In this document: positions 6,077-24,898 of the stretch, in pieces | Layout of the letters: each line of letters opens with the position of its first letter | Numbering within the stretch: the stretch's first letter is position 1 | IMG/VR virus record: IMGVR_UViG_3300018432_000569 | Coordinates: 1 to 25,777 of that record | DNA length: 25,777 nucleotides | DNA from: a virus | Strand: one strand, 5' to 3' | The notes under the pieces: model-generated | The model's input: the letters and a program-made list of their open reading frames with translations, nothing else | The model's database searches: none | What the model was told of the DNA's origin: nothing | Translations under genes and position numbers: made by a program

Positions 6077-6271
6077 ATGGGTCACTACAAAGTCATCGGT
6101 ATCCAGCCCGTCCTCGAGCACATGCCCGGCGACGAATTCGACGAGGACCTCTCGCCGGACTTGGAGGAGTTCCTCATTCAGAGCGGCTCCCTGGAGAAGG
6201 ACCCGGAGAAGCAGCCGGAACCGGAGCCTGAGGAGGAGGAGCCGGAGCCCGAGATCACTCAGGGGCCCTAG
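6077..6271 (+). CDS. Small acidic hypothetical protein
   Basis: 64 aa. It starts 3 bases after the preceding stop, with no clear Shine-Dalgarno, so is probably coupled to the previous gene. The N-terminal half (HYKVIGIQPVLEHMPGDEF) follows a pattern often seen in short phage proteins near the head-tail genes. The C-terminal third is a Pro-Glu tract (QPEPEPEEEEPEPE) and must be extended and highly acidic. Its stop TAG shares the bases CTAG at 6268-6271 with the stop of the opposing HNH gene, so the two genes abut tail to tail with no spacer. Function unknown. Confidence 0.65.
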   Translation: MGHYKVIGIQPVLEHMPGDEFDEDLSPDLEEFLIQSGSLEKDPEKQPEPEPEEEEPEPEITQGP

Positions 6272-6879: not shown

Positions 6880-6917
6880 CCCAGAAGTGTAGCACCTCGC
6901 AGGAGGCGGCATTACCC

Positions 6918-8026: not shown

Positions 8027-11000
8027 GTGGCGACAGCAGCGACGCTCACGGTCCTCGTTCGCGCGGATGGCATCAACACGCTGTCCCGGCAACTCACCGG
8101 CGTCCATAAGGACCTGACGCTCACCGGCGCCGGCGCGCGCACGGCGGGCGCGGACTTGGACAAGGCGGGCAAGCGCGGGTCGCGAGCGATCGGCGGGCTG
8201 AAGTCGGTGATGGGCGGTCTCGCGGGGCTCGCGGCGTTCGGGGCTGTGAGCAAGGGCGTGCACCTGATGATCGACGAGTTCCAGGAGGCCCGGAAGGTTG
8301 GGGCGCAAACCGCGGCGGTCCTGAAATCGACGGGTGGTGTCGCGAACATCTCCGCGAAACAGGTGCAGGACCTCGCCGGTGCCCTGTCACGGAAGGTCGG
8401 GATCGACGATGAGGCGATCCAGTCCGGCCAGAACCTGCTGCTGACGTTCTCCCGGATCCGGAACGAGACCGGTAAGGGCAACGACGTTTTCAACCAGACA
8501 ACGAAGGCGGCGCTGGACATGAGCGTCGCGATGGGCACCGACATGCGGACGTCGGCGTTGCAGTTGGGGAAGGCACTGAACGACCCCGCGAAGGGCCTCA
8601 CCCGGTTGACGCGATCCGGGGTGACGTTCACGGATCAGCAGGTGAAGCAGATCAAGGCGTTGCAGGCGTCCGGGGACATGCTCGGCGCCCAGAAGATCAT
8701 TATCGGGGAGGTCAACCGGGAGTTCGGTGGGAGCGCGGCCGCGGCCGCAACACCGATGGACAAGCTGAAGGTGAGCGTCGGGAACCTAGCGGAGGCCGGC
8801 GGCGCGGTTCTCGTCCCGGCGTTGGACAAGGCCGCGAAGGTGCTGACCGTCCTGTTCGATCAGATGGTCACCGGCCGCGGAGTGGGTGGCGCGCTTGTCA
8901 GCACGTTCCGGGGGCTCGGGACCGCGATCGGCGCGGTCGTTGCTGTCATCAGCGGCATGGTCGGGTGGTTCCGGCAGAACGAGGCGGCGTCGTTCGCGCT
9001 CGCGACCGCGGTCGGCGGGATCACGAGCGCGCTCGTCGCGCTCCGGGTGATCGGGATCGCGAGCGCCATCCAAGCATGGGTCGCGTTGAACGCCGCGTTC
9101 GTGACCAGCCCGATCGGCCTGGTCGCGCTCGCGCTCGGCGGACTCGTCGCCGCGCTCGTCATCGCGTACCACGAGTCCGAAACGTTCCGGGACATCGTCA
9201 ACGGCGCGTTCCAGATGGTCAAGGACGTCGTCGGTGGCGTGATCGGGTTCCTCACCGGGGTGATCAAGGGCATCGCTGACCTGTTCGGCGGGTCCGGCCC
9301 GCGGATCATGGCGGCCGTCCAAATCGGGGTCGTGAACGCGATCATCGCGCCGATCCGGAACGCCAAGGACGCGTTCCTTGCGCTCGGCGGATGGGTCGTT
9401 GCGCGCCTCCGGGACGGAATCACTGGTGCCGCCGCCGCGATCGTGACAGCGGCCGGCTGGATCAAGAACCGGGTCGTGGAGTACGTCCACAACCAGGTCG
9501 CCGGATTCATCAGTGTCGGATCCTGGATCACCAACCGGGTCGCCGAAGGGATCCAGGTCATCACTAGCCTGTTCGGTGCTGTCGGCGGCTGGATCAAGAA
9601 TCGCGTCACCGACCTCGTGCACGCCCAGGTGGAGGGCTTCAAGGGCGTCGGGTCATGGATCACCAACCGGGTCGCGGAAGGCATCCAAGTGGTGACCGAA
9701 GCGCTCTCCGGTGTCGGCGGATGGTTGAAGAACCGTGTCATGGATGCCGCGGCCGCCGCGAAAGAAGGCTTCCAAGGGATTGGCGGCTCGATCTTGGACT
9801 GGATCGTTGACGGTCTGAAGGCGGGCGCGAACAAGGTCGTGGGGTTCCTGAACAAGATCATCGGCGTGATCAACAAGCTTCCCGGTGTTGACATCAAGCC
9901 GATCGCTGACATCAAGACGGACGAGAAACGAAAGGGCGGCGTCTTCCAGGCGTTCGCGGGTGGCGGCGCGTTCGCACGGACCGGCGGCCTGGTCGCGAGC
10001 CCGATCACGCTCATGGGTGAGGAAGCCCCGCGGCATCCGGAGTTCGTGATCCCCACGAACCCGGCGTACAGGTCCCGAGCGCAGGGACTCGCGATGCAAG
10101 CGTCCAGCGCAGTGGGTCTCCCGCCGGGCGTGTACCCGCCCGGGCAGGGACCGCGCCGGCAGCAGGCCACGCCCGGCGGGCTGCTCCCCGGCCTCCAGCA
10201 GGGCGGCGTGTACACCGCGAGCGCGTACGGCCCGCCATGGGGTGGAATCCAGGGGACCGGTGTCACCGCGGACGGCACGAACCTGCGCGGAAACCCGCAC
10301 GTCCTCGGGGTCGCAGTCGACCCCAGGCTCATTCCGCTCGGCTCGAAACTCGACATTCAGCCGAACCCGTTCGGGACGCAACGCGACTTCAAGGCGTTCG
10401 ATACCGGTGGCGCGATCAAGGGTCGCCGCATCGACTTCTACGACTGGCGTGGCCGGGGCCCACAGAACGCGTGGGGGATGCGCCAAGTGAACGTCGACCC
10501 GCAAGGCGGTAGCGGCATCCTCGAGCGGGTCGCGGGCGCCGTCGGTGACGCGGTCGGCGCGGTCGGCGGGATCGTCGGTGACCTGATCTCCGGTGGCGCC
10601 GGGTTCCTGCTTGACCAATTGCCGAACCCGGCGGACATGCTCCCGGGATGGATGCACGGCCTCGGCCGGCACGCGATCAGCGGCGTCAGCGACTGGATCC
10701 GCGGGAAGGTCTCGGACGTCATCGGCTCCTTCGGCGGCGGGGCAGGTGGCGGCGGGATCACGGGCGGACCGCTCCCCGGCGACAAGGCCGCGGTCCTCAA
10801 GAAGCTGATCAAGATCGCGAACGAGATCGACGCCGGCGACTTCCCGTACGTGTACGGCGGCGGCCACGTCCAACCCGCACGCCCGAACCCCGGCCTGGAC
10901 TGCTCGTCATCCGTGTCGATGCTGATGCAGCACGCCGGGTTTGGGTTCCCGACGATGGTGTCCGGGGCGATGATGAACTACGGGATGCCCGGCCCCGGGA

Positions 11001-11377
11001 AGCAGTTCACGATCTGGGCGAACCCGGGGCACGTGTTCGCGACCATCGGCGGGCGCGACTGGGGAACCAACCGCGGCGAGCCCGGCGGCGGCCCCGGATG
11101 GCATAGCCACACGAAGGCGGGATTCACTCCGAGGCACCCGGGAGGGCTCGCCCAGGGCGGCATGTTCGGCCGGGACCCGTACCTCGGCGCGTACGCCACG
11201 GGTGGGGTCGTCCCGCGGGACGGGATGGCGTACGTCCACCAGGGCGAGACGATCAGCCCGGCCGGGAAGGGCGGGCCGCTCGTGAACATTGAGCGGCTCG
11301 AAGTGCATGAGCACTTGGATTGGGTGCGGGAATGGCGGAACGTCGAGCAGCAGTTGACGGCGTACGGCGGCCGGTAG
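8027..11377 (+). CDS. Tape measure protein with two cell-wall-hydrolase-like domains
   Basis: 1116 aa, GTG start with GGGAGGTGA upstream, overlapping the T stop. Residues 1-280 are helical and include a GINTLSRQLTGVHK opening. Residues 285-381 hold hydrophobic, probably membrane-inserting segments. Residues 477-570 carry 22-residue repeats (W at 478, 500, 522, 544 and 566). Near 650 is GGLVASPITLMGEEAP, the usual tape-measure C-terminal motif. Residues 729-807 match a 3D domain: D765 (AVDPRLIPLG), D792 (AFDTGGAIKG) and D803 (RIDFY). Residues 925-1050 look like an NlpC/P60- or CHAP-type cysteine peptidase: YVYGGGH, then C959 (DCSSS), then H1002 (PGHVFATI). The protein sets tail length and is ejected ahead of DNA; the hydrolase domains would open peptidoglycan. 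A final GGVVPRDGMAYVHQGE closes the protein. Confidence 0.92.
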   Translation: MATAATLTVLVRADGINTLSRQLTGVHKDLTLTGAGARTAGADLDKAGKRGSRAIGGLKSVMGGLAGLAAFGAVSKGVHLMIDEFQEARKVGAQTAAVLKSTGGVANISAKQVQDLAGALSRKVGIDDEAIQSGQNLLLTFSRIRNETGKGNDVFNQTTKAALDMSVAMGTDMRTSALQLGKALNDPAKGLTRLTRSGVTFTDQQVKQIKALQASGDMLGAQKIIIGEVNREFGGSAAAAATPMDKLKVSVGNLAEAGGAVLVPALDKAAKVLTVLFDQMVTGRGVGGALVSTFRGLGTAIGAVVAVISGMVGWFRQNEAASFALATAVGGITSALVALRVIGIASAIQAWVALNAAFVTSPIGLVALALGGLVAALVIAYHESETFRDIVNGAFQMVKDVVGGVIGFLTGVIKGIADLFGGSGPRIMAAVQIGVVNAIIAPIRNAKDAFLALGGWVVARLRDGITGAAAAIVTAAGWIKNRVVEYVHNQVAGFISVGSWITNRVAEGIQVITSLFGAVGGWIKNRVTDLVHAQVEGFKGVGSWITNRVAEGIQVVTEALSGVGGWLKNRVMDAAAAAKEGFQGIGGSILDWIVDGLKAGANKVVGFLNKIIGVINKLPGVDIKPIADIKTDEKRKGGVFQAFAGGGAFARTGGLVASPITLMGEEAPRHPEFVIPTNPAYRSRAQGLAMQASSAVGLPPGVYPPGQGPRRQQATPGGLLPGLQQGGVYTASAYGPPWGGIQGTGVTADGTNLRGNPHVLGVAVDPRLIPLGSKLDIQPNPFGTQRDFKAFDTGGAIKGRRIDFYDWRGRGPQNAWGMRQVNVDPQGGSGILERVAGAVGDAVGAVGGIVGDLISGGAGFLLDQLPNPADMLPGWMHGLGRHAISGVSDWIRGKVSDVIGSFGGGAGGGGITGGPLPGDKAAVLKKLIKIANEIDAGDFPYVYGGGHVQPARPNPGLDCSSSVSMLMQHAGFGFPTMVSGAMMNYGMPGPGKQFTIWANPGHVFATIGGRDWGTNRGEPGGGPGWHSHTKAGFTPRHPGGLAQGGMFGRDPYLGAYATGGVVPRDGMAYVHQGETISPAGKGGPLVNIERLEVHEHLDWVREWRNVEQQLTAYGGR
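9449..9790 (+). repeat. 22-residue repeats in the tape measure protein
   Basis: Five units read GWIKNRV or SWITNRV, with Trp at residues 478, 500, 522, 544 and 566, exactly 22 apart. The two unit types alternate (A-B-A-B-A'). A sixth degenerate unit (GGSILDWI) follows in register. The DNA is similar but not identical between copies. Confidence 0.85.
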
Positions 11378-11380
11378 CTC

Positions 11381-12253
11381 GTGCCGAATAACGCGCTGGT
11401 ATCCGCGCTCGCGCTCGAGGATGAGTTCGGGCAGATCACGCAGTTGCTCGCCCCCGGCTCCCGGCACGTCACCAGCATCGAAGGCGTCTTCGGCGCGAAG
11501 GCGCGGTCTGTGGTGGTGCCGCGCACGGGCCGGCACGGGACTCGTGCCCGGACACGGTTTTTGGATGATTCGCTGATCACTATCGCGTTCGATCTGCTCG
11601 GGGACACGGACGACGAGGTGTGGGCGGAGTACCGCGCGATCAGCGGCGCCCTCCAGAGCACCCTGGAAACGGAACGCCGTTTGCTGTGGACGTTCGGCAC
11701 GACCACGGCGTTGCAGTCACGTGTCAGGTTTGAGGAGATCACCGGGACCGTCGTCCCCGGCCCCCGCCGCCTCCAGTTCCAAGCGCACTTGCGGGCAACG
11801 GACCCGCGGGCGTACTCACAGACCCAGACGACGGTCGCTGGGAATCCGCTGTCGTCGACCACCACCGGCGGCGCCCGGTTCCCGCTCATGTTTCCCGTCC
11901 GGTTCAAGCCGTCGTCGACGTCGAGCGTGCAGCTCACGAACTTGGGGACAACCCCGACACCGCTGATCTTCGAGCTCCGCGGATACCTGCTGGATCCGCA
12001 GATCACGCTGGCCGGCACCGACCGCGCCCTGGTGTTCGTGGGGGATGTCGCGGCAGGGGACACGCTGACGGTCAGCAACATTGACCGTCCCGAGGTCTTG
12101 TTGAACGGGACCGCGAACCGGATGAACATGCTCGTCAGCGAGCGATCCCGCTGGTTCGATTTGCCGCGAGGGACGTGGACGATCAACCTGATCGCCCGTG
12201 ACTTCGGTACCGGCGCGTCCGTGTCGGTCCGGTACCGGCACGCCTACAAGTAG
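11381..12253 (+). CDS. Distal tail protein (Dit-like)
   Basis: 290 aa, GTG start 3 bases after the tape measure stop. The N-terminal half (GQITQLLAPGSRHVTSIEGVFGAKARSVVVPR, then a split-barrel part with EVWAEYRAISGAL) and the C-terminal galectin-like beta-sandwich (LTNLGTTPTPLIFELRGYL, then DTLTVSNIDRPEVLLNG) match the siphovirus Dit layout, including the LG..PT.P.f...G pattern and the tail segment with NLI.RD. Dit forms the hexameric ring at the tail end to which the hub and fibres attach. Its place just after the tape measure is canonical. What follows is not: the hub domain is more than 10 kb downstream. Confidence 0.85.
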   Translation: MPNNALVSALALEDEFGQITQLLAPGSRHVTSIEGVFGAKARSVVVPRTGRHGTRARTRFLDDSLITIAFDLLGDTDDEVWAEYRAISGALQSTLETERRLLWTFGTTTALQSRVRFEEITGTVVPGPRRLQFQAHLRATDPRAYSQTQTTVAGNPLSSTTTGGARFPLMFPVRFKPSSTSSVQLTNLGTTPTPLIFELRGYLLDPQITLAGTDRALVFVGDVAAGDTLTVSNIDRPEVLLNGTANRMNMLVSERSRWFDLPRGTWTINLIARDFGTGASVSVRYRHAYK

Positions 12254-12268: not shown

Positions 12269-13288
12269 GTGGCGTCATCGGTAGTCGTCGCACCAAGCGT
12301 CGGCCATGCTCTCAACCTCACACAGGGCGGCATCGGTGCGACCCCCGGGTACGACGCCATCGACTTTCGCCGCTACTTCGGGGCGCCCTTGCAGGAGGGC
12401 GCCCTTGATGCGTCCACGTACAAGGTGCATGAACGCAACGCGGGCGCGAACATGCAAGTCGAGGTCGACGCGAACGCCGGTGAGGGCGTCCTCGTTCAAG
12501 GCGACACGCTGACGAACTCGAATCAGGGCAGGTATCACGTCGCGCAGCACGGCACGGTGATCACCCTGGACGCGTTCGCGGCGTCTGTAGCGAACCCCCG
12601 CATTGACAGTGTCGTGCTCCGTGTCCGGGATAGCACGCATGACGGGTCCGGGCAGTTCGATCCGATCTGCGAGTACCTGCAAGGGACGGCAACGAGCGGC
12701 GCGACCCTTGACAACGCGGTAGGGCGGCCGGCGCTCCCGCAGAGCGCGGTCAGGTTGTGCGACATTCTCATGCCGACCAGCGCAACGTCGGTGACGGCCG
12801 CCCGGATCCGGGACCGGCGCCCGATCGCCCGCGGCCAGTACTACCGTGGGTACACGGAAACGAGCCTGACGGGGACGGGCGGCGCCGCGAAACAGGTGCC
12901 CGCGAACTGCACGTTCCGAGGCGAATTCACCGGGGCCCCCGTCCGGATCACGCTCCGCCACGGATTCATCACGGTCGCGGCGGCCGCCCCGTCGTACGGG
13001 ATCCGGGTCATGCCGATCTTCGACAGTGTCACGCCCGGCGCCCCAGGCGCCGGGGGCGCCGGGCCGCACGCGATCTACCTTGGGCATTTCTCTCCCGCGA
13101 CCGCGGACTTCACGTCCCTGCCGGGTGCGACGCACGTGATGGGATGGGTCCCGACCGCCGGCTCCCACCAGGTCGAGTTCGCGTTCATCTTGGACAACTT
13201 CGCGGTCGGCGGACAGGTCATCCAAGGACCGTTCGAGATGATCATCGAAGAACTACCGCAGCGGACCGCGTCCTTGACCACCGTCTAA
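12269..13288 (+). CDS. Minor tail / baseplate protein
   Basis: 339 aa, GTG with AGAAAGAAGGGGG upstream. The N-terminal 180 residues (YDAIDFRRYFGAPLQEGAL, then GEGVLVQGDTL, then NPRIDSVVLRVRDSTHDGSG and AARIRDRRP) follow the pattern of phage minor tail proteins that attach to the baseplate. In such proteins a line like DRVVlRv.D...dgsg..... and a final tIrDrR mark the end of an adaptor domain. The C-terminal 150 residues are beta-rich with a Gly-Ala-Pro loop (TPGAPGAGGAG) and an FEMIIEELP end, and may be a jelly-roll that binds receptor. No enzyme motif. It lies between Dit and the large modular proteins. Confidence 0.7.
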   Translation: MASSVVVAPSVGHALNLTQGGIGATPGYDAIDFRRYFGAPLQEGALDASTYKVHERNAGANMQVEVDANAGEGVLVQGDTLTNSNQGRYHVAQHGTVITLDAFAASVANPRIDSVVLRVRDSTHDGSGQFDPICEYLQGTATSGATLDNAVGRPALPQSAVRLCDILMPTSATSVTAARIRDRRPIARGQYYRGYTETSLTGTGGAAKQVPANCTFRGEFTGAPVRITLRHGFITVAAAAPSYGIRVMPIFDSVTPGAPGAGGAGPHAIYLGHFSPATADFTSLPGATHVMGWVPTAGSHQVEFAFILDNFAVGGQVIQGPFEMIIEELPQRTASLTTV

Positions 13289-13291
13289 CGC

Positions 13292-16200
13292 ATGGCTGAG
13301 CTCGCTGATACCGTCACGATCCCCGGGCCCGTCGCGTACGCATCCAACGACGTGTACTTCCCGAACGGAGGCGCGGCGCAGTACCTCCACGGGGTACGGA
13401 TCGTCCCGCCCGAAACGCGGGTGTGGGACACGCTGGGGGTCGCGTGGAACTACATCGGCACGAACTGGAATAGCCCGGCGGCCGGGACCGCTTTAGGGTC
13501 CGGCGGCCTCATCTGGTTCACGGTCCACAACCAGCTTGCGGACGGGTTGCCGGACATGAGCTCGGCGCTCGCGACCGAACAACTTGCGGCCGACTCGAGC
13601 GGCCCCGGCGCGGGCGGCAACGTCTACCGGTACGACCAGCGAACCCGCGCACTGATCGGTGCGACGACCAACAGTTTCCTGATCCATATGAGCATTCCGG
13701 CCGGCCTGTCCGTGGTCGCCGGCCTCCCCATCTGGCTCGTCATCAGGAACATGCACGCGGACCCCGTCCTGAACGCGAGCGGCCCGAACTGGGTGACCAC
13801 AAGGAACACGATCCTGCTGCCGGACGGGACCGTCAAAACGCCGCCGAACCATGTGAACACGATCACGGCCGCGTCGTCGTACTCAACGCATGGCCTGGAC
13901 CCGCGGGAAGTGGTCGCGTCGAAGGCGCTCGCCACCGACCCGTGGGTGTTCAGTACCGCGGTCGGCAGGTATCCGGGTGCGAGCTCCGGGGTCGACAACG
14001 GCAACGACCACGCCCGCATCCCCGTGTACTTCTGGCGGGAACTGGGATCCACCCGGCTGCGGTCGAAGATGCCGTTCACGGGGCAGCGGATCGCGTCAGC
14101 GGCAACCCCGACGGTTACGCGGATGGATGCCGTCAACGCGGCATCATTGAAGTACGCGCTCGCGAATCCCACGACCGCAGGGACGTGCACCGTCACCGCG
14201 CAGGTCCTGAACGCGGATGGCACGAACAATGGGTCCGCGGTCGTGAGCCCGGCGAGCGCCGCGGCCCCCACCGGTGGTGGCCCCGTTGTCGTGCAGTTCG
14301 CGGCGCCGGTCGCGGTCGCCGCCGGGCAAGGCATTCGCCTCACGTGCTCGAAGGCGGTGTGGATGGGGGTCGCGGACGCGTATCTCCGTCGCGTGTTCGA
14401 TGAATCCGACGACTGGCAGTACACCTCCAATAGTGCGCCGCACTACCCGGACATTGTCGCGTTCGGTGCCCGCGGCGTCGCGGACTGGCCCTGGTCGCAT
14501 TCCAACAGGCAGGCGGCCGCCACCGGGCAGGCCGGGGCGACAGCGGTCGCGACGAACCTGGTTGCGTCGGCGAATACCGTGACGTTCGCGGCGACCCGGG
14601 GGGCGGCGAGTCCCGACGCGAAACGTGTCCGGATCGTTGATACGTCAGCGGGCGCCAGCCGCGGGTTCACGGCTACGGTGACCGGTGACTCCGTCGGTTG
14701 GCTTCGTGTACGCGTCGGAACGACCGGGGCGGTCGGCACGACCGCGACCGGAACGGCGGACACCGACCTCTACCTTCTCGCGACCAACCAGGCCACCAGC
14801 GGGAACTACACGGCGACGGTCGGGATCACGCCGGCGCAGGGCGGGGACACCATCCCCGCGATCGCGGCGTCCATGAGTGTCACGGACGCGCAACCCGTCG
14901 GCCCGTACGACGCGGAAGTCGCGGCTGTCGCGACCCGGTTCTGGAAACTCGAGGAACTCACCGGCGATTTCCCGGACAGCAAGGGGGGCGCGAGTCTCGC
15001 GCTGACCGGTACCGGCGCGGTCCGCGGGATTGACATCAACGCGCCCGTGTCCACCACCACGGGGTTCCGTGTCGCGGTAGACGCGCTCGGGTCGGCGGTC
15101 ATCGCGCACTGGCCGCTCGGGGAAGCCGCTGGCGGTGGCGCTACCGGCACCACCGTGTACAGCGGACTGTCGCGCACCAACAGCGTGGCCGGGAAAACGT
15201 CGGATGCCGTGCCATGGCCGACCAGTACCGCGATCGGGGATGTCGTCGTCCTCGCTGTGCACATCGAGTCCGCGACCGCGGTCACCACGGCCGTCGCGTC
15301 CGGCGGGTCCACTGCGTGGGTGCAACGAGACTCGACTCGGATCACGGCGTCCGGGGATCGCAACTCGATCTGGACGAAACGCGTTGAGGCCGGGGATCTC
15401 GCGAACCCGATCAGCGTCACGTGGGGTGGCATCGCCGTCCGGTGCACCAGCACCGCGATACGGGTGACCGCCGCGAAGGCAACAGGCGAATTCGTCAACC
15501 AGGTCAGTGGCGCCACCGGGGCTGCCGCAACGTTCACTGCCCCCGGGTTCACGACCACCCAGAAGTCGCTGATCCTGTACATCGAGATGAGCCGGTGGGA
15601 TCTCAACGAAACGCCACCCGCCGGATACACGGAACGCCAAGACCTCAGCGCCACAGAGATCTACGTCGCGTCCCTCGATCAGGGCGCGGCCGGCGCGGTC
15701 GCCGCCGCCGGGGCGACAACTCCCGCCGGGGAATCCACGGACTACGCGGCGTTCCTGATCGCGATCGAACCGGAAGGCGTCGCGGTCGTCAACGCGGTCG
15801 ACCGAAAGGGCGCCCGCAACGGGGTCGCGAACGGCGCGATCACCCGGAACGTCACCACCCTCCTCACGGACGGGACCGCGGACGGCGCCGTCCAGGTCGG
15901 CGGCACCGACACGGTGCCGACCACCGGGTACTTCGAGGTGCCCGCGACGACCGCGTTGCAGACCCCTGCGTTCACGGTCATGGCGTGGGTCAAAGTCACG
16001 GGCGGGCAGGGCACCAGCCGCACAGTCATCAGTTACCGCGACAGCGGGGTCAGCATCGCGCGCGGCTGGTACATCGTTGCCGCATCCACGAACCGGTGGC
16101 GGTTCCTGGTTGGCCTGTCCGACAACACGTTCGTGACCGTCGAAAGCGTCGAGACCGTCCAAGTCGGACAGACCGTGTTCCTCACCGGAACATGGGAGGG

Positions 16201-17848
16201 AGGCGTCCCCAAACTGTACGTGAACGCGGGCGCCGCGAACAGCACGGTGCCGTCCGGAACGTACAACCAGACGCACGCCGTCAGTCGCCCCCTCCGGATC
16301 GGCGCTGGCCGCAACGAGACAACCGCGAACGACTTCTTCCGCGGCGTCATCGACGAATGCGTGCTCCTCACGCAGGCACTGTCCGCGAACCAGATTCAGG
16401 CGCACTACCTTGCGGGCACGTCCGGGGCTACCAGCCCGCCGCCGCCGCCGCCGCCGTCACCACCCGGAGTCATTCTCGTCACGAACTTCCGTGCGGTCGG
16501 GCAGGTTCTCAACTGGACGGCCGTATCGGGTGCCTCCGGGTACACGGTCGCGGCAGTCCATTCCCCGTACACCGCTGTCGCCGCTCGCGAGCTGTACACG
16601 GTGTCCGGAGGGTCAACGACATCCTTCGACCCGCCCGACGTGACCGGTGAGGTTATCCATTACGACATCACCCCGCACATCACGAACGGGGGGTACCTGG
16701 GGGACGCCGCTGGGGGGGACGCGAATCGCGTATCGATCTCGTACGCCACGAGTCCGCCGCCGCCGACGTCCTCGATTACGGTCACGACATTGGCGCCGTC
16801 CGCGACGACAACCTCAACGTTGCAGTTGCTTGGGCAGCTCACGAATCTCGCGGGTACCACGGGGACCGCGGTCTTCCAGTACGGGACGTCCAGTACCAAC
16901 CTGTCGTCCACGACACCGGGGGAAGCGATCAACGGCATCGACCAGTTCGTGTCGCATCTCGTGACCGGCCTGAACGCGGGGACCATGTACTTCTTTCGGC
17001 TCGCGTTCACACCCGCAACGGGCGGGCAGCTCTTCGGGTCGACGCTGTCCGCGTCAACGCAGGCGCCGACGTCCCCGCCGCCCGGTGGCGGCCCGACATT
17101 CGGGCCGTTGCTCACGTCGATCACGATGGAGAGCGGCAACCTGAATGAGTGGAGCGGAAACGGCTCTGGTGGTGGCGGAATTTTCGACACGCTTCCTGCC
17201 GTCTCGAGCGCGAGTCAGGATCGCGCGCATACGGGGTCGTGGTCGGCGCGGATGCGCTGGGCCGGGCCGCCGACCGCGGAAGGCGAACCAGGGTGCCGAC
17301 TATTTCGGTGGGCTGAACTGAACGCCAACCGTGAGCTGTACATCGAGCGGTGGCTGTTTATCCCGTCGCTTTACACCTTGAACGGGAGCGGCGGCCAGTT
17401 CATGATGCTGGACCAGTTCAAATCACGGACGTCGACCCGTAACGACCCGATCTGGTACATCGATGCGTACCCCCAGGGCGGCGCGATCGTGCCGTATCTG
17501 ACGTGGGGTCCGCAGTCCGGGCTCGCCGGCCCAACATCGGGCGAGGCGGCGGGCCAGAAGAACTACAACCCGACGGGTAACGCAACGCTGCCGATCGGGT
17601 CATGGTTCAAGCTCACCTCGTTCATCCGCCAGTCGAGCGCGTTCGACGGGACCATCCGGTACTGGCTCAACGACGTGCTGATCCACGACCGACCGAACGT
17701 GCGAACGGGGCACCCGAACAACGGGCAGACCATCTCCAACGCGTGGGGTGTTGATCAGCACTGGGCGATCAACAACTACTCGGACGGGATTAGCCCGTCC
17801 CCGTTCGACGTGTACGTTGACGACGTCAAGATCTATCAGGTGCCATGA
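13292..17848 (+). CDS. Giant modular tail fibre protein with LamG, BACON, Fn3 and lyase-like modules
   Basis: 1518 aa, ATG 3 bases after the previous stop. Modules: residues 1-415, unknown beta-rich N-terminal region; 420-535, BACON-like; 546-595, orphan start of a LamG/ConA domain (FWKLEELTGDFPDSKGG); 596-617, start of a second LamG (VIAHWPLGEAAGG); 618-830, a complete module like the first protein of this window; 832-1045, rest of the second LamG (VDRKGARNGV ... PAFTVMAWVKV ... RGVIDECVLL); seven prolines; 1058-1150, Fn3; 1158-1263, a second Fn3-like domain; 1268-1518, a jelly-roll resembling polysaccharide lyases (MESGNLNEW, HTGSWSARMRW, YIERWLFIP, YVDDVKIY). Likely a tail-tip fibre that binds, and may trim, surface glycans. 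The last ATGA overlaps the next gene. Module calls are by eye. Confidence 0.8.
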   Translation: MAELADTVTIPGPVAYASNDVYFPNGGAAQYLHGVRIVPPETRVWDTLGVAWNYIGTNWNSPAAGTALGSGGLIWFTVHNQLADGLPDMSSALATEQLAADSSGPGAGGNVYRYDQRTRALIGATTNSFLIHMSIPAGLSVVAGLPIWLVIRNMHADPVLNASGPNWVTTRNTILLPDGTVKTPPNHVNTITAASSYSTHGLDPREVVASKALATDPWVFSTAVGRYPGASSGVDNGNDHARIPVYFWRELGSTRLRSKMPFTGQRIASAATPTVTRMDAVNAASLKYALANPTTAGTCTVTAQVLNADGTNNGSAVVSPASAAAPTGGGPVVVQFAAPVAVAAGQGIRLTCSKAVWMGVADAYLRRVFDESDDWQYTSNSAPHYPDIVAFGARGVADWPWSHSNRQAAATGQAGATAVATNLVASANTVTFAATRGAASPDAKRVRIVDTSAGASRGFTATVTGDSVGWLRVRVGTTGAVGTTATGTADTDLYLLATNQATSGNYTATVGITPAQGGDTIPAIAASMSVTDAQPVGPYDAEVAAVATRFWKLEELTGDFPDSKGGASLALTGTGAVRGIDINAPVSTTTGFRVAVDALGSAVIAHWPLGEAAGGGATGTTVYSGLSRTNSVAGKTSDAVPWPTSTAIGDVVVLAVHIESATAVTTAVASGGSTAWVQRDSTRITASGDRNSIWTKRVEAGDLANPISVTWGGIAVRCTSTAIRVTAAKATGEFVNQVSGATGAAATFTAPGFTTTQKSLILYIEMSRWDLNETPPAGYTERQDLSATEIYVASLDQGAAGAVAAAGATTPAGESTDYAAFLIAIEPEGVAVVNAVDRKGARNGVANGAITRNVTTLLTDGTADGAVQVGGTDTVPTTGYFEVPATTALQTPAFTVMAWVKVTGGQGTSRTVISYRDSGVSIARGWYIVAASTNRWRFLVGLSDNTFVTVESVETVQVGQTVFLTGTWEGGVPKLYVNAGAANSTVPSGTYNQTHAVSRPLRIGAGRNETTANDFFRGVIDECVLLTQALSANQIQAHYLAGTSGATSPPPPPPPSPPGVILVTNFRAVGQVLNWTAVSGASGYTVAAVHSPYTAVAARELYTVSGGSTTSFDPPDVTGEVIHYDITPHITNGGYLGDAAGGDANRVSISYATSPPPPTSSITVTTLAPSATTTSTLQLLGQLTNLAGTTGTAVFQYGTSSTNLSSTTPGEAINGIDQFVSHLVTGLNAGTMYFFRLAFTPATGGQLFGSTLSASTQAPTSPPPGGGPTFGPLLTSITMESGNLNEWSGNGSGGGGIFDTLPAVSSASQDRAHTGSWSARMRWAGPPTAEGEPGCRLFRWAELNANRELYIERWLFIPSLYTLNGSGGQFMMLDQFKSRTSTRNDPIWYIDAYPQGGAIVPYLTWGPQSGLAGPTSGEAAGQKNYNPTGNATLPIGSWFKLTSFIRQSSAFDGTIRYWLNDVLIHDRPNVRTGHPNNGQTISNAWGVDQHWAINNYSDGISPSPFDVYVDDVKIYQVP
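16436..16456 (+). repeat. Poly-proline linker, 7 Pro
   Basis: Seven CCG codons, then Ser and two Pro, separate the LamG domain from the first Fn3 domain. The stretch marks a module border, as in the later genes. Confidence 0.85.
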
Positions 17849-18951
17849 GCGGCGCGACCACCGTAGGCGGATTGCCGTCCGTCGCAAACGCGAAAGGTGT
17901 CCGCCTCAACGGCGCGTACCTGACCGCACTCGACGCGCTGGTAGGGACGCGCCCCCCGACCGTTACCGGGGCATTCAGTATGGGCGGCCTCTACCGGCCG
18001 CTCACATTGACGGGTCCGCAACGACTCGTCACAAAGGTTGACAATCCGGACCTCACGACAGAAGCCGGCATGGTCGCGTGGGTGACCCCGACATACGCGC
18101 GGATGGCGAGGATCGGGACCGCAACGAACGGGAACACGGGCGCGTACCGTGGCGTGTACGACGAAACAACGGCGGGTGCTCCCACGGTCGGATCATGGCA
18201 TTCATGGGGATGGCGGTACGACCCGACCGCCACGAACCCGGTGACCCCGGAGAACCCGACGGGCGCGCCCGGCCGGTCCGCGTTCTTTCAGTACGGCACC
18301 CTGAAAGCGGAAGCCGATACCCGCGGGATTACCGTGCCGGCAACGATCGCCGCGCTCGTAATCGGCGCGAAAAGTGATGGGACCTCCCCGTTTCTCGGTG
18401 AGGTCAGTCGCGTCTGGGTTGCGGAGGGCACGGCGCTCTCCGATGCCTGGTTCGCCCGGGCGGAGACCGCTCGCGTGTTTGGCGCGACCGCGCTGTCCGC
18501 GATCCGTACCACCCCCCAGTCCCTGACCGTCACCGCCCCGGTCGGGTCCACGACACCCGTGCAGGCGTCCCTGCAAGTTACGCAGGCGATCCCCGGCGGC
18601 AACCCCAACTTCTCGCTGACGCTACCGACACGGATCACCGCGACCGGGTCCCTGAGCGCTCCCACGACGCTCGCGCTGTCCGTCAGCCCCACCGGGCTTA
18701 CGGCTGACACCAACGTGAATATCACGATCACGCCAGCGGACACCACGCAGGCGCCGTTCACGGTCCCCGTCCTGATCGACATGATCTCAAGCGACCTTGT
18801 TGTCAGCCCGACGAGCATCGCCCTGAACGCGGTCGCCGGGGCGTCCACATCCAATACGCAGCGACTGACGGTCACGCAACAGGTCGCGGGTGGCCTTACG
18901 GGGTTCACGATCAGTACGCCCGTTCCGTGGCTCCGGATCAGCCAGGTCTAA
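17845..18951 (+). CDS. Tail-tip protein with headless LamG and truncated BACON modules
   Basis: 368 aa; ATG in an ATGA overlap with the previous gene, AGGTG 5 bases upstream. Residues 1-215 are the later part of a LamG/ConA-like domain (VANAKGVRLNGAYLTALDAL, then an ending FLGEVSRVWVAEGTALSDAW), but the usual opening strand with its xWxLxE motif is missing. Residues 220-315 form a BACON-like domain ending VPVLID. Residues 316-368 (LVVSPTSIALNAVAG ... PVPWLRISQV) are only the first half of a second BACON domain, stopped by TAA. The missing LamG opening is matched by an orphan fragment in the previous protein (residues 546-595), and the missing BACON half by residues 95-150 of the protein at 22589. 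Probably structural or glycan-binding. Confidence 0.72.
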   Translation: MSGATTVGGLPSVANAKGVRLNGAYLTALDALVGTRPPTVTGAFSMGGLYRPLTLTGPQRLVTKVDNPDLTTEAGMVAWVTPTYARMARIGTATNGNTGAYRGVYDETTAGAPTVGSWHSWGWRYDPTATNPVTPENPTGAPGRSAFFQYGTLKAEADTRGITVPATIAALVIGAKSDGTSPFLGEVSRVWVAEGTALSDAWFARAETARVFGATALSAIRTTPQSLTVTAPVGSTTPVQASLQVTQAIPGGNPNFSLTLPTRITATGSLSAPTTLALSVSPTGLTADTNVNITITPADTTQAPFTVPVLIDMISSDLVVSPTSIALNAVAGASTSNTQRLTVTQQVAGGLTGFTISTPVPWLRISQV

Positions 18952-18955
18952 CGTC

Positions 18956-21900
18956 GTGGCGACCCTCACCTTTCCGCATGCGCTGCGTCTCGGTAGCACC
19001 GCGATCGGCCTGCAGAACGCGATCACGTCCGGGGCGATCACGTTCCCGGTCGCGGTCGCCGGCCGCGACGCTGACACCCTGGATCGCCTCTACGTCCTCT
19101 CCCGCGACGCGCTCCGTGTGTGGGTAGTCAAGGACGGCGCCGTTCTCGCGACCCCCGCGCTTGATCTCTCGAGTATCGCGAGCGTGTTCGGACAGGAAGG
19201 TGGCTGCCTCGGGCTCGCCGTCTACCCGACCCTTGTCTCCAGCCAGCTCGTCCTATTCGTGTCCTGGACGGACAATGTCGGGACCCTCCGCGTCAGCCGA
19301 TTCACCGGGACCGGCGGCAACCTGGACGCGGTCACGCTCGCGAGCCGCGTTGACCTGATCAGCGCCACGAACACGACCGGCATCCATTACGGGGGATGCC
19401 TACGCCTCGATTCCGACGGCAAACTCCTCGCCAGCATCGGGGACAAGGGGGACCCGCTCGCCGCGGACGGCCCCCAGAACGCCACGTCCGCGTACGGCAA
19501 GATCAACCTGTTCACGGCGCCGCTGACCGCAACCACCCGTGTCGTCGGGGCATTGGGACTGCGGAACCCGTGGCGGTTCGACATTGACCGGACCGTCACC
19601 GCCGTGCCCGGCACCCTGTTCCCGCAACCGGTGTACATCGCGGATGTCGGGTCTGACCCCGCCACGACCGCCGTCCCCAGGGAGGAGATCGATTACATCG
19701 CGGCCGGTACCAACGCGGCCGTCAACTTTGACTGGCCGAACCGGGAGGGGACATTCACCCGGGTCGCGGCGGTCACGATCAGCGCGTCCCAACCGACATC
19801 AACGAGTCTCACGTTCCTCGGACAGATCCTGCCGCAGAACAACGCGGGGACCGCGTTCTTTCAGTGGGGGACCAGCCCTCTCAGTCTCTCGAATTCCACG
19901 ACGGGAGAGGCGGTCGCCGGCCCCGACCAGTTCATTCAGCACACCATCACGGGGCTCACGGTCGGGACGACGTACTACTTCCGGACGGCGTTCACATGGT
20001 CGGGCGGGACCGTCACCGGCGCGACCCTGGACGCGGAAACCACGTCCACGCTCCAGTCCGCGCTGTCCTCCGGAACGATCACGTATCCAATCCAGCTCGC
20101 CGCACGCGCAACGGACCTCACGGACAGATTCTACGTCGCCTCGAGAACCACCGGCCGGGTGCTTGTCGTCAAGTCCGGCACCGTCCAATCGGTTCCGGCG
20201 CTGGACATTTCGAGCATTTACAGCGTGTTCGGAAACGAGGGCGGACTCCTTGGGCTCGCGATTCATCCCGACCTTGATACGGGCGGGAACATCGCGATGT
20301 ACGTGTCATGGACGAATTCCAGCGGCACACTGTTCGTCAGCGAATTCAAGTCAACGGGGAACGTTGATGTGTGCTCGTTCGCGACCCGGCGGGACATTCT
20401 GACCGACGCGAACCGGGACGCCCAGGGCCGCCACTTCGGGGGATGCCTCCGCTTCGACGTCGACCGGAAACTGTGGTTCAGTGCGGGGGACGCGAACAAC
20501 GAGACGGACGCCACGAACGGGCCGCAGTCCACGAACACCGCGCCGCGCGGGAAGATGGTGTTCTGGACGAGCCCTCGCACGTCGGCGACGTTCGCGGTCG
20601 GCGCGAAGGGCCTCAGGAATCCGTGGCGGTTCGATTTCGATCCGGGTGTGCTCGGGGTCGCCGGCGCGATGTGGACGCAGTCCTGCTACATCGGGGATGT
20701 CGGGTCCGACACGGGACACACATCCGTCCCACGGGACGAGGTGGATTACGTCGTCGCTGGGCGGACGACACTCGCGAACTTCGGATGGCCGAACCGGGAG
20801 GGAACGATCCTCCGCAACTCGGCGAACACGGGGGGTTTCGCGAACTACACGTCCGGTGTCGCTGGGGAGATCCTGCCGATCCGGGAGTACCCGTTCAACA
20901 CGAGCACGATCCGGGCGATCGTGGTCGGCGCGCCCATCCGGGATGACAACGCCACCGGCGGCTGGGCGGACAAGGTCCCGATCGGTGACTTCATCTCAGA
21001 CCAGCTCAGGGTTATCGATGCGGTCACCGGCGCGAACGACGCGGTCGCGCCGCAGTCCGCGCTCACGAACGTCGTTTCCATTGATCGCGACCAGTTCAAC
21101 CAGGTCTACTACCTCACCAGCGCCGGGCAGGTCCTCCGGCTCGGGAATCGCGCGACGATCCCTACCAGCCCCCCGCCCCCGCCGCCACCGCCGCCGCCGC
21201 CGCCACCGCCGCCGGGGACGACAGTGGTCGCGGAGACCTTGTCATCGCATGACATTACGACCACCACGATCAGGTTTCTCGGGCGCATCACGAACGTTGG
21301 CGGAGATCTCGGGGACGCGTTCTTTCAGTACGGCACCACGAGCACGAACCTGAACCTGTCAACGGCGATTGACACGATCGACGGGACCGACCAGTTCATC
21401 ACGGACACCGCGACCGGGCTGACCGCGAGCACCACCTACTTCTTTCGGCTCGCGTACACCATCGCGAGCGGCGCGGTCACCACCACCGGCGTGACCCTGT
21501 CCGCCACCACGCTTGCCGTTGGTCCCCCGCCGCCGCCACCGCCACCGCCCCCGCCGCCCACGGGCGGCACGAACGTTGATACCAGCCTGTTGTGGACCGC
21601 GAACTCGAGCGTGTTTCTACCGGCGCCGTTGCCGCTGAGCTCGGGGTCGATCGTGACCGCGAACAGCGGCAACTGGCAGTCCGTGATCGCCGGGGCCGCC
21701 GCGGGAACAACGGTCAAGCTGGCGGGCGGGACGTACAACTTCTCGGATCTCCCGAACTCCGGGTGGGCTAAGAGCGTCACGAACCCGGTGACGATCATCC
21801 CGGACGGGGACAGCGCGATCGTGTCCATGGAACGCTTCATGCAGTTCGATGGCTCGATCAGCGGCCTCCGGTTCCGGCGGCTCCGGCTGTCCGCGGACAT

Positions 21901-22585
21901 CGAATACGCCGTCTCCTTTCAGCAATCGACCAGTTGGGTGGAATTCTCGTTCTGCGAGCTGATGGGTGCCGCCGGCGGCACCCCCATGCAAGGCTTCCTG
22001 TTTCAGTCCGGAGCTGCGAGCGCGAGCACCCCGCATCACTGCTTCGCGTTCGGGAACATCATTCACCGCGTATCCCCCGTGAACTACCCCGGCCCCGACC
22101 CGGACTCCCACGTCCACGGCGTGTACATGGCAGCCGCCGTCGACTGCGTTGTGGCATGTAACCGCATTGATGCGCAACCCGGCTGGAACCTCCACGGGTT
22201 CGGGGCGTTCCGCAACAGCTTCTGCGGGTTCAACTACTGCCAGGGAACGTCCGGGCAGAACAGTCTGACGTGGGGTGGCAACGACGAGGCGTCCCGTGGC
22301 CGACCGACGAACAACCGGATCTACGGGAACGTTGGCCACCAGGGATACGAGTCGTTCCAGATGGGGTCCAACAACATTTTCCAGTACAACTGGGGAACGA
22401 ACGTGAACCTCGGATCGTCGTGGACGCTCGCGCTCGGGTCCGGCAACCCGTCCGTCAGCTCGATCGGGAAGCCGCTCGCCGGGAGTCCGCTGATCGGCAA
22501 GGTCCCGAACCCGGGGATCCGGTTTGACCAGGCCGGCGTCACCCGACCGACGGGGAACTGCGCCGCGGGCGCATACGAGCCGTAA
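18956..22585 (+). CDS. Tail protein with two sugar-dehydrogenase-type propellers and a beta-helix
   Basis: 1209 aa from the GTG at 18956, 5 bases after the previous stop. Residues 1-262: a glucose/sorbosone-dehydrogenase-like beta-propeller (IHYGGCLRL with H144, then GALGLRNPWRF, then DWPNREGTF) that lacks its last section. Residues 268-365: Fn3-like domain. Residues 366-735: a second, complete propeller (RHFGGCLRF with H493, GAKGLRNPWRF, GWPNREG, then LPIREYP and a final VYYLTSAGQVLRLG). Then 15 Pro; 752-855, another Fn3-like; 12 Pro; and 872-1209, a right-handed beta-helix of pectate-lyase/tailspike type ending GAYEP. The propellers keep the His and the GLRNPWRF motif of the PQQ enzymes, but enzymatic use in a virion is unproven; glycan binding is an alternative. 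The next gene is in the same frame after one TAA. Confidence 0.8.
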   Translation: MATLTFPHALRLGSTAIGLQNAITSGAITFPVAVAGRDADTLDRLYVLSRDALRVWVVKDGAVLATPALDLSSIASVFGQEGGCLGLAVYPTLVSSQLVLFVSWTDNVGTLRVSRFTGTGGNLDAVTLASRVDLISATNTTGIHYGGCLRLDSDGKLLASIGDKGDPLAADGPQNATSAYGKINLFTAPLTATTRVVGALGLRNPWRFDIDRTVTAVPGTLFPQPVYIADVGSDPATTAVPREEIDYIAAGTNAAVNFDWPNREGTFTRVAAVTISASQPTSTSLTFLGQILPQNNAGTAFFQWGTSPLSLSNSTTGEAVAGPDQFIQHTITGLTVGTTYYFRTAFTWSGGTVTGATLDAETTSTLQSALSSGTITYPIQLAARATDLTDRFYVASRTTGRVLVVKSGTVQSVPALDISSIYSVFGNEGGLLGLAIHPDLDTGGNIAMYVSWTNSSGTLFVSEFKSTGNVDVCSFATRRDILTDANRDAQGRHFGGCLRFDVDRKLWFSAGDANNETDATNGPQSTNTAPRGKMVFWTSPRTSATFAVGAKGLRNPWRFDFDPGVLGVAGAMWTQSCYIGDVGSDTGHTSVPRDEVDYVVAGRTTLANFGWPNREGTILRNSANTGGFANYTSGVAGEILPIREYPFNTSTIRAIVVGAPIRDDNATGGWADKVPIGDFISDQLRVIDAVTGANDAVAPQSALTNVVSIDRDQFNQVYYLTSAGQVLRLGNRATIPTSPPPPPPPPPPPPPPPGTTVVAETLSSHDITTTTIRFLGRITNVGGDLGDAFFQYGTTSTNLNLSTAIDTIDGTDQFITDTATGLTASTTYFFRLAYTIASGAVTTTGVTLSATTLAVGPPPPPPPPPPPPTGGTNVDTSLLWTANSSVFLPAPLPLSSGSIVTANSGNWQSVIAGAAAGTTVKLAGGTYNFSDLPNSGWAKSVTNPVTIIPDGDSAIVSMERFMQFDGSISGLRFRRLRLSADIEYAVSFQQSTSWVEFSFCELMGAAGGTPMQGFLFQSGAASASTPHHCFAFGNIIHRVSPVNYPGPDPDSHVHGVYMAAAVDCVVACNRIDAQPGWNLHGFGAFRNSFCGFNYCQGTSGQNSLTWGGNDEASRGRPTNNRIYGNVGHQGYESFQMGSNNIFQYNWGTNVNLGSSWTLALGSGNPSVSSIGKPLAGSPLIGKVPNPGIRFDQAGVTRPTGNCAAGAYEP
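21170..21214 (+). repeat. Poly-proline linker, 15 Pro
   Basis: Fifteen consecutive proline codons (mostly CCG, some CCC and CCA) join the second propeller to the following Fn3-like domain. Confidence 0.9.
21524..21559 (+). repeat. Poly-proline linker, 12 Pro
   Basis: Twelve consecutive proline codons join the Fn3-like domain to the beta-helix. Confidence 0.9.
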
Positions 22586-22588
22586 CCG

Positions 22589-24898
22589 ATGGCTGATCCG
22601 ATCCGGGAGTACCCGCGCGACCAGTTTCCGACGTGGCGCGCCTCGATCGTTGGCGCCCCCGTCCAGAACACGGAGGCGGTCGGCTGGACGACGGCGGTCC
22701 CTGTCGCTGACTTCAACGCGGGCGCTCTGCGGCTGATTGACAAGGTCACTGGCGGGAATGACCGGTCCGCGCCGATCCCCGCGCTCGCGCAGGTCGTGTC
22801 CATTGACACGGTCCGGGGGGAGACGTACTTCCTGACCTCCACGGGCGGCGTGTACCGCCTCGGGGCGACCACGGACCCGGAACCCCCCGTGTCCACGCAG
22901 ACGCTGTACGACATTACGGCGCTGCCCGTAGGCCTGGCTGCCGGGTCGTACACGACGACGATCACGATCACCCCAGCGGACACGGGGCAGTCCCCGATTG
23001 TGGTGCCGGTCGTGTTGACCGTTGTTGCGGCGCCATCCCCGCCGCCGCCGCCGCCGGGGACCGGGACGGTCATCTACAGCAACACGCCGATGGCGTTCGA
23101 TATCGCCGGCCTGACGACGGGGCTCGCGTCCGGGACGATGTTGACGACGACGCTGACGGTGGTGCCGGACACGACGTTCCCGTCCGTGTCCGGCGGCGGG
23201 CAGGACGACCAGTTCCTGCTGTTGGACCCGGACGCGGCCGCGACCGCCGCGAACGAGCCCGGCGCGATCACCATTCCCGTCACGCTCACCGTCGGCGCGA
23301 CCGCACCACCACCGCCGCCTCCCCCGCCGCCTCCGCCGCCTCCTCCGCCGCCGCCTCCTCCGCCTCCGCCGCCGCCGCCGGGGACGACGATTGTGGTCGC
23401 GACACTGGCGCCGTCGACGGTGACGTCGACGTCGCTGGTCGTTCGCGGGGAAATCACCGGGCTCGCGGGGATCACGGGCACCGCGTTCTTTCAGTACGGC
23501 ACGACCGCGACCGGCCTGACGTCCACGTCAACGGCGCAGGCCGTGAGCGCCGACCAGTTCGTGTCGCAGACGATCAGCGGACTGGTTCCGTCAACGACGT
23601 ACTTCTACAGGCTGATGTTCACGTGGTCGGGGGGGACCGCCCCGGGCGCGACGACCACGGCGGTAACCAGCGCGGTCGTGAGTCCGCCGCCACCCGCGCC
23701 GCCACCACCGGGGGGGCCGCCGCCCACGTCACCACCGACCCCGCCGGGCGTGGAGCCGGACCCGGACGCCCCCCGCTCCCGTGCCCGTCCGTACTGGGAT
23801 TTCGTGCTCGCCGCCTCGAACGGCGTGAGGATCGCGAGCCTCCCGATCCGTCCCAAACTGACGTTCCAGTTGAACCGGCCGACCCTGGTCACGTTCGACC
23901 TGTACCACGACGACCCCGACGCCGCCGAGTTCTACACCGCGCTCGCGAATGGGATCCCGCAGTTGCGGGCGTACCGGAACGGGGTGCTCGTCTTCAGTGG
24001 CCTGATGCGCCCGTTCGACGAGACCAGCGACCCGCAGACCTCGACGATGACCCTGGTCTTCGCGGACCCCATGGCCATTCTCGGGTCCCGGCACGTCACG
24101 GGCCTTCACACCCAAGTGGACGCCGGCGAGATCGCGTGGCAATCCATCCGGGCTGCGCACATCAACAGTCCCGTCCCGGTCATCCGCGGCACCATCCAAA
24201 CAACCGTCTTGCGGGACCGTCAGTACGAACGCAAACAGATCCTCGAACTGATCCAGCAGCTCACCGAGGTCGACGGCGGCTTCGATTACGCGATCACGCC
24301 ACTGGATCCCACAATCGCGGGGGGTGGGGCGCTCGGCGCGTTCAACGTCGTTGCGCGCGCCGGGACAGACATCAGCGCGAGCGTCCGATTTGAGCAGGGT
24401 GACGGCACCCTCGACAACGTCCTGAACCGTCGCCGCCAAGTCGAGCTGCCAGTCAACTACGTCATCGCAATGGGCGCGCAGAACGAGAACGGCGTCACGT
24501 TGACCGCGACCGCGGAAGACACCGTCAGCCGCGACAAGTACGGCCGGTACGAGCGGCAAGAGTCGTTCTCGGATGTCAGCGAGCTCGCGACCCTCCAACA
24601 ACACGCGCAGGACCTCCTGCGACCGGATCCGGTGATAACCGAAGCGTTTGAACCGGACCCGGAGACGGCGCCGTGGCCGTGGGATGACTACTGGCTCGGG
24701 GACACGGTCGCGTATCGCGTCGAAACGGACGCCGGCCGCGTGTCCGGCACCACGCGCGTGATGGGCGTCGAGATCGAACTGGACGACCAGGGCAACGAGA
24801 CTGCGCACAGGTTGACGCTGGGTGAGCAGCACCCGCGCAGGTTCCCCGTCGACACGATCCGGGACCTCACGCGCCGCCTGTCGGCACTCGAAAGGTAG
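22589..24898 (+). CDS. Baseplate hub (Tal/Gp37-like) fused to adhesin module fragments
   Basis: 769 aa, ATG 3 bases after the previous stop and in the same frame; no clear Shine-Dalgarno. Residues 1-91 (PIREYPRDQFPTWRASIVGAP ... TYFLTSTGGVYRLG) are the closing part of a sugar-dehydrogenase propeller. Residues 95-150 are the second half of a BACON domain (ALPVGLAAGSYTTTITITPAD ... VPVVLTV). Residues 160-239 resemble another BACON second half with an acidic insert. Then come 25 prolines, an Fn3-like domain (267-363) and a Pro-Gly linker. Residues 395-769 are the tail hub domain (RPYWDFVLAASNG, then LRAYRNGVLVFSGLMRP, then LIQQLTEVDGGFDYAI, then WLGDTVAYRVET and a final HRLTLGEQ), typical of ReqiPepy6-Gp37-like siphovirus hub proteins, which close the tube below Dit. 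The hub domain normally comes straight after Dit with no such N-terminal load. Confidence 0.82.
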   Translation: MADPIREYPRDQFPTWRASIVGAPVQNTEAVGWTTAVPVADFNAGALRLIDKVTGGNDRSAPIPALAQVVSIDTVRGETYFLTSTGGVYRLGATTDPEPPVSTQTLYDITALPVGLAAGSYTTTITITPADTGQSPIVVPVVLTVVAAPSPPPPPPGTGTVIYSNTPMAFDIAGLTTGLASGTMLTTTLTVVPDTTFPSVSGGGQDDQFLLLDPDAAATAANEPGAITIPVTLTVGATAPPPPPPPPPPPPPPPPPPPPPPPPPGTTIVVATLAPSTVTSTSLVVRGEITGLAGITGTAFFQYGTTATGLTSTSTAQAVSADQFVSQTISGLVPSTTYFYRLMFTWSGGTAPGATTTAVTSAVVSPPPPAPPPPGGPPPTSPPTPPGVEPDPDAPRSRARPYWDFVLAASNGVRIASLPIRPKLTFQLNRPTLVTFDLYHDDPDAAEFYTALANGIPQLRAYRNGVLVFSGLMRPFDETSDPQTSTMTLVFADPMAILGSRHVTGLHTQVDAGEIAWQSIRAAHINSPVPVIRGTIQTTVLRDRQYERKQILELIQQLTEVDGGFDYAITPLDPTIAGGGALGAFNVVARAGTDISASVRFEQGDGTLDNVLNRRRQVELPVNYVIAMGAQNENGVTLTATAEDTVSRDKYGRYERQESFSDVSELATLQQHAQDLLRPDPVITEAFEPDPETAPWPWDDYWLGDTVAYRVETDAGRVSGTTRVMGVEIELDDQGNETAHRLTLGEQHPRRFPVDTIRDLTRRLSALER
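23306..23380 (+). repeat. Poly-proline tract, 25 Pro
   Basis: Twenty-five consecutive proline codons in mixed use of CCG, CCT, CCA and CCC, followed by Gly-Thr-Thr. It separates the BACON-like remnant from the Fn3-like domain and is the longest of the linkers here. Confidence 0.92.

Follow-up and report, generated by a model that had tools for sequence, protein, structure and literature searches.

The window analysed here is a linear metagenomic contig of 25,777 bases (IMGVR_UViG_3300018432_000569) that contains zero Ns and is the late tail region of an actinophage-like siphovirus. Pfam and PHROG profile annotation of its open reading frames (ORFs) placed a likely major tail protein at 6918. 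This is followed by a tape measure protein (TMP; 8027-11377), recognized by TMP profiles and a 3D domain, by Dit (11381-12253), most closely matched in phages of Streptomyces and Arthrobacter, and by the gene after Dit, which is given the label tip339 (12269-13288). P0001 to P0004, four long adhesin ORFs, then occupy 13292-24898 on the plus strand, on which the parts of this block described below also lie, and a coiled-coil ORF at 24907 comes after P0004.

Several further features were observed in the window outside the adhesin genes. The 3D domain of the tape measure protein (residues 762-822) suggests a cell-wall lysis activity, and the tip339 gene holds a near-perfect, GC-rich inverted repeat of 32 nt at 13033-13064. 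A 790-residue protein encoded at 1179-3551 is made up of dozens of repeats of about 12 residues (ATLTGAGALTATG type), with a weak match to filamentous-haemagglutinin repeats. On the minus strand, opposite the tail genes, a cysteine-rich ORF of 214 amino acids (6268-6912) looks HNH-endonuclease-like by eye; Pfam yields only a weak zf-FCS match for it.

P0001 (13292..17848, 1518 amino acids) consists of an unknown N-terminal domain, a BACON domain (BACON0, or bac0), the start of a LamG domain (LamGa), a second LamG domain (LamGb) split by a U-domain, two FN3-like domains and a polysaccharide-lyase-like C terminus, the excised domain giving a weak Pfam Polysacc_lyase match (E = 0.002). P0002 (17845..18951, 368 amino acids), the start of which overlaps P0001 by ATGA, contains the C-terminal part of LamGa, an intact BACON domain (BACON1, or bac1) and the N-terminal half of another (BACON2), followed by a stop. 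P0003 (18956..22585, 1209 amino acids) runs from the N-terminal part of a propeller (prop1) through an FN3 domain, a complete propeller (prop2) and another FN3 domain to a beta-helix-like C terminus and the stop codon TAA. P0004 (22589..24898, 769 amino acids) contains the C-terminal part of prop1, the C-terminal half of BACON2, an orphan BACON C-terminal half, an FN3 domain and a Gp37-like tail domain. BACON2 encloses all of P0003 together with the end of the propeller, and prop1 encloses most of P0003. The nested order proposed in a preliminary description of this sequence is therefore largely real, although its list of interruptions was incomplete, as it left out the U-domain, which lies inside LamGb in one reading frame. 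Within P0004, mixed CCN codons encode a run of 25 prolines (23306-23382), and runs of 4-15 join other modules.

The Gp37-like domain (23780..24895), which makes up the C-terminal ~370 residues of P0004, is likely the tail anchor. It matched the minor tail protein family phrog_1885 (E = 2e-18) and aligned with Gp37-like proteins encoded by Streptomyces phages and by one prophage; the Pfam Sipho_Gp37 match (E = 0.0074) lies under the family cut-off. Its homology, with 12 viral relatives, and its place after Dit identify it as a siphovirus Gp37-like tail protein. In Streptomyces phage Attoomi, Dit precedes a homologue of tip339 (E = 3e-9), and the Gp37-like gene (E = 3e-5) comes immediately next. 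In the best Gp37 relative, a viral contig (L123; 29% identity), the Gp37 frame opens at the end of the tip339 homologue (E = 2e-10), and a prophage has a similar order, with a weak tip339 match (E = 0.007; L092). In the window, the tip339-like and Gp37-like genes stand apart, with adhesin modules filling about 10.4 kb between them; part of these modules is fused to the Gp37 domain, and this block is absent in Attoomi and L123.

Searches for the modules themselves gave little. Viral contigs were queried with Gp37, Dit, the TMP, P0001 and P0002 and with propeller, FN3 and Gp37 alignments; relatives came only from the Gp37 alignment, and none carried the modules of the block. A tblastn search of phages with P0001-P0004 gave no match at the limits used, and neither did an FN3 search of genome contigs; over two scans of genome contigs, the only matches were ordinary cellular genes for glucose/sorbosone dehydrogenase (GSDH). 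Among 395 actinobacterial genomes, P0002 had one match, in surroundings that are not those of a tail gene, and Gp37 matched one prophage. Uninterrupted versions in related phages, which the preliminary description had proposed to look for, were not found by these searches, which gave no relative with the same modules, whether joined or split.

Propeller and BACON domains divided between genes

To analyse the propellers, we used a profile of 61 cellular GSDH proteins, collected with the window's propeller alignment. The complete six-bladed GSDH-type propeller, prop2 (20036..21154, P0003 residues 361-733), covers profile positions 11-368 of 373. The N-terminal part of prop1 (18992..19768, P0003 residues 27-272) covers positions 24-267 of the same 373, and the C-terminal part (22598..22867, P0004 residues 4-93) falls at ~279-366 when the two are fused. 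Thus, prop2 spans the profile in one chain, whereas prop1 does so only on two separate chains. Alone, the C-terminal part scored a weak 11.2 bits, and its placement was seen when it was joined to the N-terminal part. Joining extended the match range to 24-366 and raised the score from 130.5 to 136.6 bits, compared with 128.9 to 133.5 bits for five shuffled C-terminal parts. With the Pfam GSDH model, which gave a short local match, joining did not raise the score.

Comparison with prop2 was more informative. The C-terminal part of prop1 is 51.6% identical to prop2 residues 641-730 (52-53% in another comparison), which at the level of sequence is stronger evidence for this part than the profile join. 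The N-terminal part is 51% identical to the corresponding part of prop2, and the two parts are therefore equally distant from their paralogue. In a 53-row alignment, the N-terminal part ends at prop2 residue 263 and the C-terminal part starts at 281. All 50 cellular homologues aligned (50/50) have both parts in one frame, with 13-27 residues across the position of the cut. The AF2 model of prop2 (pLDDT 87, pTM 0.91) is least confident at the position of the prop1 cut (pLDDT 54-73), and Foldseek matched it to PQQ sugar dehydrogenases in the PDB (3das, 2ism and 1qbi) and to the related HHIP propeller. The GSDH motifs H..GG and GLRNPWRF are kept in the sequence, and PQQ-dependent catalysis is putative. 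Judged by strand order, the N-terminal part of prop1 probably contributes blades 1-4 in addition to the N-terminal closing strand, and the C-terminal part probably contributes blade 5 plus three strands of the sixth. That a propeller begins in P0003 and resumes in P0004, as previously proposed, is strongly confirmed by the 61-sequence profile and the identity to prop2.

The BACON2 split was directly observed by comparison with its intact neighbour in P0002, bac1 (18481..18786). The N-terminal half of BACON2 (18787..18948), which ends in WLRISQV and a stop codon, matches bac1 residues 5-49 and also bac0, and the C-terminal half (22889..23038, P0004 residues ~101-150) matches bac1 residues 57-102. 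Against bac1, the halves scored 65 and 88, respectively, and their fusion 137 (z = 12.4); against bac0, the joined domain scored 99 (z = 9.1). At the DNA level, the C-terminal half is 76% identical to bac1 over 54 nt. The two halves are complementary, leaving a gap on bac1 within about 8 residues, which confirms the proposed cut between the end of P0002 and P0004. The orphan C-terminal half (23054..23311, P0004 residues 155-241), behind a poly-proline linker, scored 63 against the BACON2 C-terminal half, a value reached by 0/500 shuffles; it has no N-terminal partner in the window, so that not every half is paired. Pfam BACON models matched no copy, whole or joined, and the name BACON is therefore a motif reading (WLRIS..., GLAAGSYTTTITIT). 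As an internal repeat family, these copies are solid and significant within the window by their sequence scores.

LamG domains, junctions and coding signal

Of the two LamG domains, LamGb is the clearer. Its C-terminal part (15788..16417) matches Pfam Laminin_G_3 (PF13385) at P0001 residues 877-1036 (E = 2.7e-21), which places LamGb in this family, and its N-terminal fragment (15080..15145; SAVIAHWPLGEAAGG) lies on the other side of the U-domain (15140..15787). With this domain of ~200 residues cut out and the N-terminal fragment joined on, the LamG profile gave 95.0 bits instead of 80.6. A separate gene at window 1-708 is homologous to the U-domain (score 105, z = 5.8, 0/500 shuffles). The U-domain in LamGb is a nested insertion that keeps the reading frame.

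For LamGa, the preliminary description had proposed a split between P0001 and P0002, and this case is weak. The N-terminal fragment (14897..15004, P0001 residues ~536-571, FWKLEELTGDFPDSKGG) is weak and gave an hhalign gain only when joined to the P0002 N terminus, where the C-terminal part (17851..18480), itself a weak assignment, scored 23.6 compared with at most 16.0 for shuffles. The join scored 31.6 (E = 4.5e-4) over the whole domain, and 50 control joins that kept the real C-terminal part or in which the N- or C-terminal part was replaced (25 N-part shuffles and 25 replacements by other window stretches) scored at most 23.9. However, the gain appeared only with ~29 junction residues omitted (P0001 572-600), HMMER scores for both parts were at shuffle level, and Pfam gave no usable match to the P0002 N terminus or the joined domain. 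An AF2 model of P0002 from its single sequence (pLDDT 35) is uninformative on the fold. The hhalign join is suggestive of a split LamGa; the junction misfit speaks against it.

The restart codons lie between 4 nt before the preceding stop, as an overlap, and 4 nt after it. Starts at -4 to +4 nt from the stops, with no strong Shine-Dalgarno sequence seen at the restarts, are what coupled translation would be expected to show. P0004 reads in the frame of P0003 (junction TAA-CCG-ATG), and the halves of BACON2 and of LamGa are in different frames. The earlier claim that a start codon lies where each interrupted domain resumes holds for the propeller, whose match begins three codons after an ATG, and may hold for LamGa, but not for BACON2, which resumes at P0004 residue ~101, after the propeller piece.

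Short stop-start junctions recur before P0001 (13283..13299, GTCTAACGCATGGCTGA), between the BACON2 N-terminal half and P0003 (18946..18962, GTCTAACGTCGTGGCGA) and between P0003 and P0004 (22583..22596, TAACCGATGGCTGA). The sequence TAACNNATGGCTGA starts both P0001 and P0004 and, with at most 2 mismatches, has three matches in the window (0/100 shuffles had as many); GTCTAACG, ahead of P0001, is repeated at the BACON2-P0003 junction (5/100 shuffles had as many). Because gene starts are non-random sequence, these repeats are at most a hint that gene-boundary sequences were involved in recombination. No convincing target duplications or terminal repeats were found at the inserts. Away from the junctions, an exact match of 22 nt (..TTCTTTCAGTACGGCAC..) occurs at 18279-18300, 21316-21337 and 23481-23502, in the LamG-like part of P0002 and in two FN3 modules; linking modules of different fold, it is possibly a recombination anchor.

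All of the pieces have open frames, high GC3 and uniform GC, and their codon bias is that of the core tail genes, in the expected frame only; in this test, the LamGb fragment (54 nt) was too short to tell. These observations support the earlier proposal that each piece is probably still translated.

History of the block

Serial insertion is the best explanation of these data. Entry of modules into older surface loops would account for the complementary halves, the intact paralogues inside the block and the lack of the block in relatives. We propose an ancestral actinophage-type siphovirus with a long tail-tip protein that had a Gp37-like end, in which whole adhesin modules and genes may have entered surface loops of existing domains one after another. 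A propeller gene would have been inserted into a BACON domain, and a block of FN3, propeller, FN3, beta-helix and stop into that propeller; a LamG-to-lyase block was probably inserted into the first LamG domain, and the U-domain would have entered the second. The inserts would have brought stop codons and restarts with them, so that what was one polypeptide would now be made as four chains that are closely coupled. The propeller and BACON domains, and possibly LamG, most likely re-form from pieces on separate chains, and P0003, P0002 and, through P0002, P0001 would dock on the Gp37-anchored P0004.

We hold the central part of this model, from serial insertion to four coupled chains that re-form the propeller and BACON domains, with moderate confidence. 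The more specific version, in which complementation of split domains serves as docking for all three pairs (P0001 and P0002 sharing a LamG domain, P0002 and P0004 a BACON domain, and P0003 and P0004 a propeller, while the Gp37-like domain fixes P0004 to the tail), seems rather unlikely. According to PMC4735018, propellers can assemble from two- or three-blade fragments (citing Voet 2014 and Yadid and Tawfik 2007); such assembly is established in the laboratory, which makes it plausible that prop1 is rebuilt from its parts on P0003 and P0004. The separate chains may rebuild their split folds together. Because no relative with the same modules joined was found, we infer the insertion history, and we likewise infer the order of the insertions, the translation of all four genes and the reassembly of the chains. 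Serial insertion, as first put forward in the preliminary description, has thus gained from the complementary halves, the unsplit homologues, the U-domain and the absence of the block in relatives, but not from LamGa, which is weak, or from a joined relative.

One alternative, doubtful although it deserves weight, accepts the insertions but sees the half-domains as relics, scars that are disordered or only partly folded; complete modules would then stabilize each chain, and the halves would not reassemble. The orphan BACON C-terminal half shows that half-domains are tolerated, and the block still has intact copies of the propeller, BACON, LamG and FN3 domains. However, both parts of prop1 share their divergence from prop2, have native codon bias and contain zero stops, whereas trimming would be expected to remove half-propellers that are exposed.

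The evidence for the split folds comes from one contig of a metagenomic assembly, and strain variants of a repeat-rich tail region could have been fused into it. FN3 repeats and long poly-proline tracts are hard for short-read assembly, and a second contig with the same arrangement was not found. Misassembly is nevertheless improbable: the frame is open and seamless at the propeller-FN3 and FN3-prop2 joins, all pieces match the core genes in composition and codon bias, the contig has no Ns, and the FN3 copies are ~70% identical in DNA, with the single 22-nt exact match lying away from the cuts. It is made less likely because two cuts would each need both sides to be chimeric yet complementary.

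Similarly low is the probability that P0003 and P0004 are functionally one protein with an in-frame nested insertion, the stop having arisen through a sequencing error or a recent mutation, or else being read through; prop1 would then form within a single chain. Since both genes share one frame, with only TAA-CCG between them and an insert length that is a multiple of three, the break could be a single stop codon, and this block has another nested insertion that stays in frame, LamGb with its U-domain. Against this, the stop comes after an apparent natural beta-helix ending (GAYEP), the junction sequence also begins P0001, and the out-of-frame halves of BACON2 would be left unexplained.

Illegitimate crossovers between different adhesin genes, in which the halves were never one domain here and the nested order is coincidental, would fit the orphan BACON half, the LamGa misfit and the heavy module shuffling, but we consider them equally improbable, as the propeller halves meet without overlap in a stretch that measures 13-27 residues in homologues, the BACON halves meet within about 8, and two complementary pairs would rarely arise at random. 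Inteins and introns were rejected, as the inserts encode adhesin modules and no splicing elements were noticed.

If reads confirm the arrangement and the halves associate, the phage could keep adding adhesin modules without losing older ones. One gene would become several subunits in a few steps, with the cut fold serving as an interface, and a natural propeller and an Ig-like domain would be common to several chains. If all pairs reassemble, the Gp37 domain of P0004 would be the common attachment of the four chains.

Comparison with known systems

The evolved Dit proteins of Gram-positive siphophages carry carbohydrate-binding modules in loops of their galectin domain (PMC7291167). The window resembles them in that, within the TMP-Dit-Tal region, a tail-tip domain has received modules of carbohydrate-binding type in loops at its surface. 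In evolved Dits, the inserts affect Dit and the host domain stays one chain; in the window, they affect adhesin domains, carry a stop and a start, and are nested at least two deep. LamGb with its U-domain follows the evolved Dit pattern, whereas prop1 and BACON2 are divided by stop codons. In another known case, endonuclease genes separate phage DNA polymerase domains, which come to lie in different frames (PMC10684548); there too, inserted genes divide a gene into separately read pieces. However, the polymerase genes are cut between domains by endonuclease genes, whereas the cuts in the window fall inside single folds and the inserted modules are adhesins like the gene that received them.

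The adhesin-Gp37 fusion has parallels, because Gp37-like minor tail proteins in two viral contigs carry N-terminal TIG domains (L129, 8834-11029; L132, 5357-7255). These share a Gp37-like C terminus and an adhesin-type N-terminal extension with P0004, but have a few TIG domains, in one gene, and no split folds. Like the propellers of PMC4735018, prop1 may close from several chains; the fragments there were reconstructed or designed, whereas the 4+2-blade split in the window would be natural. In the open-access literature searched, no account was found of single adhesin folds being split into separate genes by adhesin modules. The block is a variant of modular tail adhesins in which single folds are divided between genes.
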